DNA of 64,000 nt from an uncultured Clostridia bacterium (GTDB taxonomy: Bacteria > Bacillota > Clostridia > UBA1381): assembly GCA_947623955.1 (NCBI GenBank), contig CANQIP010000007.1:1-64000 (forward strand). Reading direction: 5' to 3'. Below are positions 29,649-48,865 of the stretch, piece by piece; the stretch's first letter is position 1, and each line of letters starts with the position of its first letter. The notes under the pieces are model-generated. The model was not told the origin of the DNA and searched no databases. It worked only from the letters and a program-made list of their open reading frames with translations. A program made the position numbers and the translations under genes.

Positions 29649-29815
29649 AAACCCCTCTGTCATTTGCCTTGCAAATGACACCTCCCCTATTAGGGGAGGC
29701 ATACGAGTGAGGCTCCCCTGATAGGGGAGCTGTCGCCGTAGGCGACTGAGGGGTTTATGCGGGCGACCGCGAGGGTCGCCCCTACACGGGATATTCGACC
29801 ATAGGGGCGAGAACG
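29649..29815. repeat. Composite palindromic repeat cluster 1
   Basis: AAACCCCTCTGTCATTTGCcttGCAAATGACACCTCCCCTattAGGGGAGG; GGCTCCCCTgatAGGGGAGCTGTCGCCgtaGGCGACTGAGGGGTTT; GGGCGACCgcgaGGGTCGCCC. Confidence 0.85.
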
Positions 29816-47660: not shown

Positions 47661-47678
47661 GTGCGAATATCGCGTGAG

Positions 47679-47795
47679 GCCCCCTTGTCAAAGGGGGCTG
47701 TCACACGAAGTGTGACTGGGGGATTCCTTTTTGGATTTTTATAAAGAATCCCTCCACCGCCTTCGGCGGTCCCCCTCCCTTTGACAAGGGAGGCT
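47679..47795. repeat. Composite palindromic element, copy B (inverted relative to copy A; cluster 4)
   Basis: Reverse complement closely matches 45002-45117 except in loops and the AT-rich core. Confidence 0.85.
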
Positions 47796-47804
47796 AAAGA
47801 CGTG

Positions 47805-48013
47805 CGCCCGCAAGGGTCGCCCCTACACCCGTATTTTATGAATTTGTGCGCCGTAGGGGCGACCCTTGGTCGCCCGAGGGAGGATAATATCCGCCCCTAC
47901 GGTGAGCCTCCCCTGCTAGGGGAGGTGTCGGCAGAGCCGACGGAGGGGTTTTTGGAATTATTATAAAATAAACCCCTCAGACGCCTACGGCGCCAGCTCC
48001 CCTAGTAGGGGAG
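47805..48013. repeat. Palindromic repeat cluster 4, remainder
   Basis: GGGCGACC-type hairpins, then GAGCCTCCCCTgctAGGGGAGGTGTCGGCagaGCCGACGGAGGGGTTT and AAACCCCTCAGACGCCtacGGCGCCAGCTCCCCTagtAGGGGAGCC. Confidence 0.8.
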
Positions 48014-48067: not shown

Positions 48068-48096
48068 TTTACATTTCCGTGAAAAAATGATATACT
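48068..48096 (+). promoter_or_regulatory. SigA-type promoter positioned to start transcription at the long inverted repeat
   Basis: TTTACA-N17-TATACT; hairpin begins 7 nt downstream of the -10. Confidence 0.65.
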
Positions 48097-48102
48097 ATTC
48101 TT

Positions 48103-48262
48103 GCGAAACATTTCAATTTAATATTTTTGTGTTATGTTTTTTTAATATTTTTTTCTCATTTATACAATAATTGTGGTTTAGACTGCTAAAAACGCAGGCT
48201 TTGTTCAATACCACAGTTGATATAAATGAAAAAAAATATTAACTTGAATTGAAATGTTTCGC
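48103..48262 (+). ncRNA. 160-nt AT-rich imperfect inverted repeat / predicted giant hairpin (candidate RNA or MITE)
   Basis: Perfect 16-bp ends GCGAAACATTTCAATT (48103-48118) and AATTGAAATGTTTCGC (48247-48262); second stem 48142-48177 with 48210-48242. Confidence 0.5.
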
Positions 48263-48347
48263 AGCATTTAAAGCCTCGTTTTATTGCGCGGCTTTGAAAT
48301 ACAGGCTGCGCATTTTTTATTTGCGCCGAGCAGGGGAGGTGTAGGAT

Positions 48348-48485
48348 ATGAACGATTACGAGGAAATGTACAAGGCGCTGTTTAACAAGATTACGGATGT
48401 GATAGAGGAACTTAAAGAGGTTCAAAAGCAGACCGAGGAAATGTACATAAATGCCGATGATAAAAAGGATGCTCCCGAAGGTTGA
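48348..48485 (+). CDS. 45-aa small protein of unknown function
   Basis: ATG preceded by aGGGGAGGTGTAGGAT; MNDYEEMYKALFNKITDVIEELKEVQKQTEEMYINADDKKDAPEG; predicted helical; followed by a terminator. Confidence 0.7.
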   Translation: MNDYEEMYKALFNKITDVIEELKEVQKQTEEMYINADDKKDAPEG

Positions 48486-48505
48486 TACCTCGGGAGTTTT
48501 TTTTC
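48472..48505 (+). terminator. Terminator overlapping the small-ORF stop codon
   Basis: CTCCCGAAGGTTGATACCTCGGGAGTTTTTTTT. Confidence 0.85.
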
Positions 48506-48516
48506 GGTGAACGTAA

Positions 48517-48773
48517 AAACCCCTCAGTCACGCTGCGCGCGACAGCTCCCCTAGTAGGGGAGCCATACGGTGGGCGACCGCACTGCGTGAGCCTCCCTAG
48601 TAGGGGAGGGATCGCCGAAGGCGGTGGAAGGGTTTTGTTAAAATAAACCCCTCAGTCACGCTGCGCGCGACAGCTCCCCTATTAGGGGAGCCATACGGTG
48701 GGCGACCGCACTGCGCGAGCCTCCCCTACTAGGGGAGGTGGCGGCGAAGCCGACGGAGGGGTTTGCATACAAT
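48517..48773. repeat. Palindromic repeat cluster 5: two direct copies with 128-bp period
   Basis: AAACCCCTCAGTCACGCTGCGCGCGACAGCTCCCCTA(g/t)TAGGGGAGCCATACGGTGGGCGACCGCACTGCG(t/c)GAGCCTCCC at 48517 and 48645. Confidence 0.88.
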
Positions 48774-48865
48774 ACCGCCCCGCGTTGTTTTTCACGTAGA
48801 AAAGCATAATCACCTCCGATGTGCATATATATAGAGTATATTTGGACAAAAGGAGGAAAATCAAA

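Follow-up and report, generated by a model that had tools for sequence, protein, structure and literature searches.

Does a giant hairpin that stands between its own promoter and the gene for a 45-aa protein form an autonomous unit with that protein, or does such an RNA serve whichever gene lies behind it? The locus that raises this question belongs to an uncultured Clostridia bacterium and lies in a window of 64,000 nt (contig CANQIP010000007.1, positions 1-64,000), in which the coordinates of the unit were read directly from the letters (Table 1).

A giant hairpin followed by a second terminator

The original prediction, made from the letters of the window, placed here a promoter (TTTACA/TATACT, 17-nt spacing), a 160-nt hairpin with 16-bp perfect ends, a ribosome-binding site and a 45-aa open reading frame (ORF) about 85 nt further on, and a terminator overlapping the stop codon. 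All of these parts are present in the sequence, with small corrections: the hairpin, henceforth P1, spans 162 nt, its perfect basal arms measure 17 bp and the gap that precedes the ORF is 84 nt long. The transcript is predicted to start at or beside the base of the stem. P1 folds at -53.0 kcal/mol, compared with -23.1 +/- 3.2 kcal/mol for dinucleotide shuffles (z = -9.4, 0/200), and the whole 461-nt unit also folds better than expected (z = -6.1).

What the original prediction had missed is an attenuator-like region within the 84 nt separating P1 from the ORF. This interval holds a second intrinsic terminator (48285-48318) and an alternative hairpin that overlaps it; in addition, the interval is complementary to the loop of P1 over 14 bp. 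Segment a can pair either with L, the apical strand of P1, or with b, while b can pair either with a or with c. Thus, L:a and a:b are mutually exclusive, as are a:b and b:c, which have strand b in common. In the window copy the pairing energies are -16.1 kcal/mol for L:a, -12.1 kcal/mol for a:b and about -15 to -15.9 kcal/mol for b:c. An intrinsic terminator ahead of a gene, overlapped by an exclusive helix, is the arrangement by which an attenuator is recognized, with the support for a:b being weaker than that for b:c.

Table 1. Features of the unit in the window
Feature	Position	Strand	Basis or remark
-35 box TTTACA	48068..48073	+	sequence; sigma-70-type promoter
-10 box TATACT, 17-nt spacer after the -35 box	48091..48096	+	sequence
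Stem start TGCGAAAC (conserved), 5 nt past the -10 box	48102	+	sequence
Giant imperfect hairpin P1, span 162 nt	48102..48263	+	sequence, folding energy
P1 basal arms, perfect 17 bp: TGCGAAACATTTCAATT and AATTGAAATGTTTCGCA	48102-48118 and 48247-48263		
Segment L, apical strand AAAAACGCAGGCUUUGU, complementary to a	48188..48204	+	energy, covariation, swap tests
Match to covariance model R1 (L-a-b-c core)	48189..48320	+	88 bits, this copy being one of the 28 sequences behind the model
Segment a UUAAAGCCUCGUUUUAU, partner L or b	48268..48284	+	energy, covariation, swap tests
Segment b UGCGCGGCUUUG, partner a (antiterminator) or c (terminator)	48285..48296	+	pairing energies
Segment c and T6, intrinsic terminator, 29 nt 5' of the ORF	48303..48318	+	c alone 48303-48312
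Shine-Dalgarno GGGGAGGTG / AGGGGAGGTG ahead of the ORF	48332..48341	+	sequence
45-aa ORF, acidic single-helix small protein	48348..48485	+	TGA 48483-48485
Terminator after the ORF, hairpin then T8, overlapping the stop codon	48473..48504	+	sequence

The surroundings of the unit are also as first described: G+C-rich palindromic repeat clusters (AAACCCCTCAGTCACGCTGCGCG...CTCCCCTANTAGGGGAG...) lie on both sides (47677-48013 and 48517-48774). Similar repeats occur near window position 29690 and, in relatives, around rearranged junctions. The next gene after the unit is spoIVA (TIGR02836; 48866-50341). The gene order 5' of spoIVA varies among close relatives (a DUF6198/fucosidase block, other genes), marking the locus as a rearrangement hot spot, and an empty-site comparison found the flanks rearranged in the relatives. 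In genome G008 a gene of ~400 aa lies between the unit and spoIVA (locus L080, G008:C7 around 83348).

Pairing and promoter across divergent leaders

Counting six L:a and eight b:c pairs per leader in 28 divergent leaders, we found standard pairs in 98.7% of the 392 cells, in an alignment (MAFFT) that leans somewhat to L because its input was trimmed to begin at the A-run of L. Double changes occur in 35 cells and affect eight of the pairs, and no shuffle of 500 reached any of these measures; the pairing therefore covaries. Sliding one strand by a single column lowered the pairing to about 36%. The L:a helix had an energy of -15.1 kcal/mol with a leader's own strands and of -8.1 kcal/mol with strands swapped between unlike leaders, a loss of about 7 kcal/mol.

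A more independent check relied on a DNA pattern comprising the b:c core and the loop of a only. A scan of 85,462 genomes with this pattern gave 80 readable loci, and cmsearch on the loci chosen in this way returned 89 matches, nearly all of full length and including L. In swap tests on 88 copies, own strands paired better than swapped ones for L:a (-15.4 versus -9.6 kcal/mol), b:c (-15.9 versus -11.1 kcal/mol) and a:b (-11.3 versus -9.1 kcal/mol). The a:b helix is the weakest, being better than 90% of swaps in only 34 of the 88 copies, and a static RNA of L:a and b:c with an incidental a:b could therefore also fit.

L lies inside an enclosing hairpin in 104 of 105 copies (median of 37.5 enclosing pairs), and a -10 box with at most one mismatch is found near the stem start in 91 of 104. 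Indeed, a sigma-70-type promoter with 17-nt spacing occupies the same position ahead of most copies: a typical copy has a TTGACA-like -35 box, 17 nt, TATAAT, ~5 nt and then TGC(G/C/T)A-C, a motif whose pairing partner is the 3' end of the stem. Upstream of the -35 box we found no box common to the copies, the enriched k-mers being only A/T-rich. Conserved bases lie beside the stem (GYRRCA) and the apical loop, while the middle of the stem is hypervariable. When the window copy is compared with the syntenic copy in genome G007, the core is 98% and the outer arm 100% identical, whereas the rest of the 5' arm is only 39% identical; stem starts in this comparison were guessed from the promoter and are off in some long leaders, so that only the best pairs are readable. 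The G007 copy is resembled by a copy at another locus in genome G011. Copies that are unlike in sequence at both ends have kept their complementarity. At some loci two or three RNA copies stand in tandem before one gene, each with its own promoter (L246, 2287-2885; L201, L186, L227 and L163).

Distribution of the RNA and the genes behind it

The covariance model R1, built on L-a-b-c, detected 18 copies in the window's own genome. In the order it matched 79 of 95 genomes, the richest having at least 29 copies (copy counts in these large searches are lower bounds, as no more than a few candidates were scored in each genome), and in the class 95 of 392 sampled genomes, from 53 of 222 genera. None of 299 other genomes sampled evenly across the phylum gave a match, which also shows that the model yields few false positives. 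The named records from the 85,462-genome pattern scan are Clostridia, mostly metagenome-assembled gut genomes, with labels such as Oscillospiraceae, Clostridia bacterium, Eubacteriales and Candidatus Avimonoglobus. The positions of the copies are patchy between relatives.

The original prediction recognized no family for the layout of the unit, and database searches likewise returned none. For the RNA, cmscan of the window against Rfam 15 gave no match at the gathering cut-off, the unit gave chance-level matches only at E up to 10, and 19 copies gave just two sub-threshold matches at E up to 0.05; a search of phages and plasmids found no RNA match. For the 45-aa protein, Pfam, NCBIfam and PHROG returned insignificant matches only, and phages and plasmids one weak match, in an unannotated phage record. 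A literature search confined largely to open-access papers, with Rfam as the motif collection consulted, found no description of the RNA. The leader RNA is apparently a conserved RNA switch that has so far gone undescribed.

Which genes stand behind the copies? A Shine-Dalgarno-preceded ORF of at least 35 aa begins within 130 nt in 54 of the 84 copies with enough sequence, compared with 10.5% of random positions and 8 of 83 on the divergent side, ORF starts being called by a simple Shine-Dalgarno rule rather than by a gene finder. These ORFs are co-directional, and most start 13-40 nt past the T-run. Secreted BspA-type leucine-rich repeat proteins (LRR_5) account for 19 of 62 targets, and the others include lipoproteins, proteins with CHAP or lipase domains, an SLH protein, an HTH regulator and zinc ribbons. 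Orphan small proteins make up several further target families, one of them that of the 45-aa protein. We found no pathway common to the genes downstream of the RNA copies. In the window's own genome, three of the 18 copies lie ahead of a gene for the 45-aa protein and about two have no close co-directional gene behind them. A second small target family recurs behind the RNA in several genomes and is cysteine-rich (ITGIxLxPGNxGxxCxGNGE...ECCCDECxYLxCC; L208, L229, L233, L219 and L174).

The 45-aa protein was expected to be helical, and AlphaFold2 indeed models it as a single helix over residues 3-40 (mean pLDDT 86.8). Conservation of the ORF, which the original prediction had proposed to check, was likewise observed: relatives carry the protein, which occurs in 24 of 95 genomes of the order and 22 of 392 of the class. 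There are three paralogs in the window's own genome and often two to six paralogous copies in relatives. In relatives, most family genes follow the same leader, though its stem differs, and some have no leader. Several family genes, a number of them leaderless, have an XRE-type regulator as neighbor or directly follow a tRNA gene (L007, L024, L010, L017, L026 and L067), which suggests mobile or integration-site contexts.

A candidate attenuator and its alternatives

We consider it likely that the element acts in cis as a transcription attenuator within the 5' leader of the gene that follows, here that of the 45-aa helical protein. The RNA probably decides whether transcription ends ahead of the next gene or continues into it; the best reading of the copies together is a new family of cis-acting transcription attenuators, and the best explanation of their neighbors is that many accessory genes, a good number of which encode secreted proteins, are served by this RNA family. 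At the level of sequence, the comparison of copies establishes that L:a and b:c pairing is conserved, that a:b and b:c overlap, where the promoter lies and that co-directional genes follow closely.

In the most economical model, termination would be the default. The sigma-70-type promoter would begin the RNA at the base of the giant hairpin, which would display strand L in its apical loop. Segment a, once made, would pair with L and thereby free b for c, and the b:c terminator would end transcription ahead of the gene, the predicted OFF state. If L were withheld from a, a:b would form instead, no terminator would arise and read-through would turn the gene ON. We infer two states that switch in the cell, with L:a as the OFF state, and some factor, RNA, ligand or cleavage that acts on the giant hairpin or its loop, as well as the direction of switching and a role for the variable stem. 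A more speculative version, which is quite unlikely to be right, has hypervariable double-stranded stems exchanged or diversified among dozens of leaders per genome across the class, with loop, attenuator and promoter fixed; the variable stem or loop might then be the address of a trans-acting signal (an RNA, a nuclease or a phage factor) that switches on individual surface or orphan genes.

Every copy brings its own promoter and a good terminator, tandem arrays included, as would an independent small RNA, stable at ~215 nt and trans-acting, whose proximity to genes is incidental. The copies with no gene close behind would suit such an RNA as well, as would the likeness of L segments across copies, many of which could bind the a segments of other copies in the same genome (three of the 18 entries in this analysis were mis-segmented). 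However, co-directional genes with a Shine-Dalgarno sequence follow the terminator at short distance far above chance, and an a:b helix overlapping that terminator is expected of an attenuator, not of a plain small RNA, which makes this reading unlikely. Multi-copy leaders with a terminator and antiterminator before many genes also recall riboswitch or T-box regulons. The giant hairpin could then be the scaffold of a sensor for a ligand, protein or tRNA, with L:a as the output helix, and the conserved bases around the stem and the apical loop would fit. This is very unlikely, since the targets share no metabolic pathway, the hypervariable long stem leaves little conserved sequence for a binding pocket and no Rfam riboswitch or T-box matched; a T-box riboswitch itself was rejected on this last ground (RF00230 included).

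The original prediction had favored a structured-RNA/small-protein module, and part of this stands: the RNA is conserved and covaries, and the ORF is conserved and has leader-bearing paralogs. The unit is not autonomous, however, since most copies precede unrelated genes, and the expected co-occurrence of hairpin and ORF failed, with the RNA in 79 but the protein in only 24 of the 95 genomes of the order and some protein genes lacking the RNA. For the same reason we regard as extremely unlikely a dedicated module, for example one resembling a toxin-antitoxin system, in which leader RNA and protein act on each other. The RNA does precede most genes of this conserved protein in the order, but it is far commoner than the protein, and LRR, CHAP, HTH and other genes lie behind other copies. 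The data can be explained without any action of the 45-aa protein on the RNA. The original prediction had itself named a MITE with target duplications as one finding that would overturn it. Many copies per genome and patchy positions between relatives would be in keeping with a non-autonomous mobile repeat, such as a MITE, with terminal inverted repeats that fold by chance, yet the copies differ and covary, keep a fixed promoter spacing and precede co-directional genes, and no target duplication was seen at 48102/48263 in the window copy. We give this reading next to no credence and rejected it, as the copies are not near-identical and DNA similarity found only one match in the own genome. LoaP-dependent antitermination was also rejected: nearly all RNA-carrying genomes have one NusG-type gene and none more than two, which makes a NusG paralog devoted to this RNA, as LoaP would be, unlikely.

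A cis-acting attenuator is thus our preferred reading, and as a kind of regulator it is already known; what would be new is the design, in which the loop of a giant hypervariable hairpin, anchored at the promoter, competes for the antiterminator strand. T-box leaders (RF00230 and relatives) and the attenuation riboswitches of Firmicutes likewise have 200-300-nt 5' leaders, exclusive terminators and antiterminators and many copies before different genes. In contrast to them, the RNA described here lacks an Rfam match, its giant hairpin begins at the promoter and carries the competing strand in the apical loop, and its targets are mostly secreted or orphan proteins. In the countertranscript-driven attenuation of plasmid rep genes (pT181, pIP501 and pAMbeta1), the formation of a terminator depends on a loop of the leader and on a preemptor strand. 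The likeness lies in a loop and a competing strand that set a downstream terminator, but the loop of the present element pairs in cis, with the leader that carries it, and the element is chromosomal, multi-copy and without a rep gene. Type III toxin-antitoxin and AbiF-type loci also join promoter, structured RNA, intrinsic terminator and protein gene in one unit, whereas this RNA has no repeats, no known toxin family lies downstream and the following gene varies by copy. The put, EAR and LoaP-type antitermination elements are promoter-near RNA hairpins that alter termination as well, but here the terminator belongs to the element.

If the attenuator reading is true, a single undescribed leader RNA is in use in about one in four of the sampled Clostridia genomes, mostly from uncultured gut lineages, and up to 29 copies per genome would control the genes of secreted LRR proteins, lipoproteins and orphan small proteins. 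It would account for the silencing or induction of these target genes, and the known attenuators would gain a design in which a giant hairpin anchored at the promoter governs the terminator through its loop. The attenuator would also open a way into the surface biology of gut bacteria that still resist cultivation.
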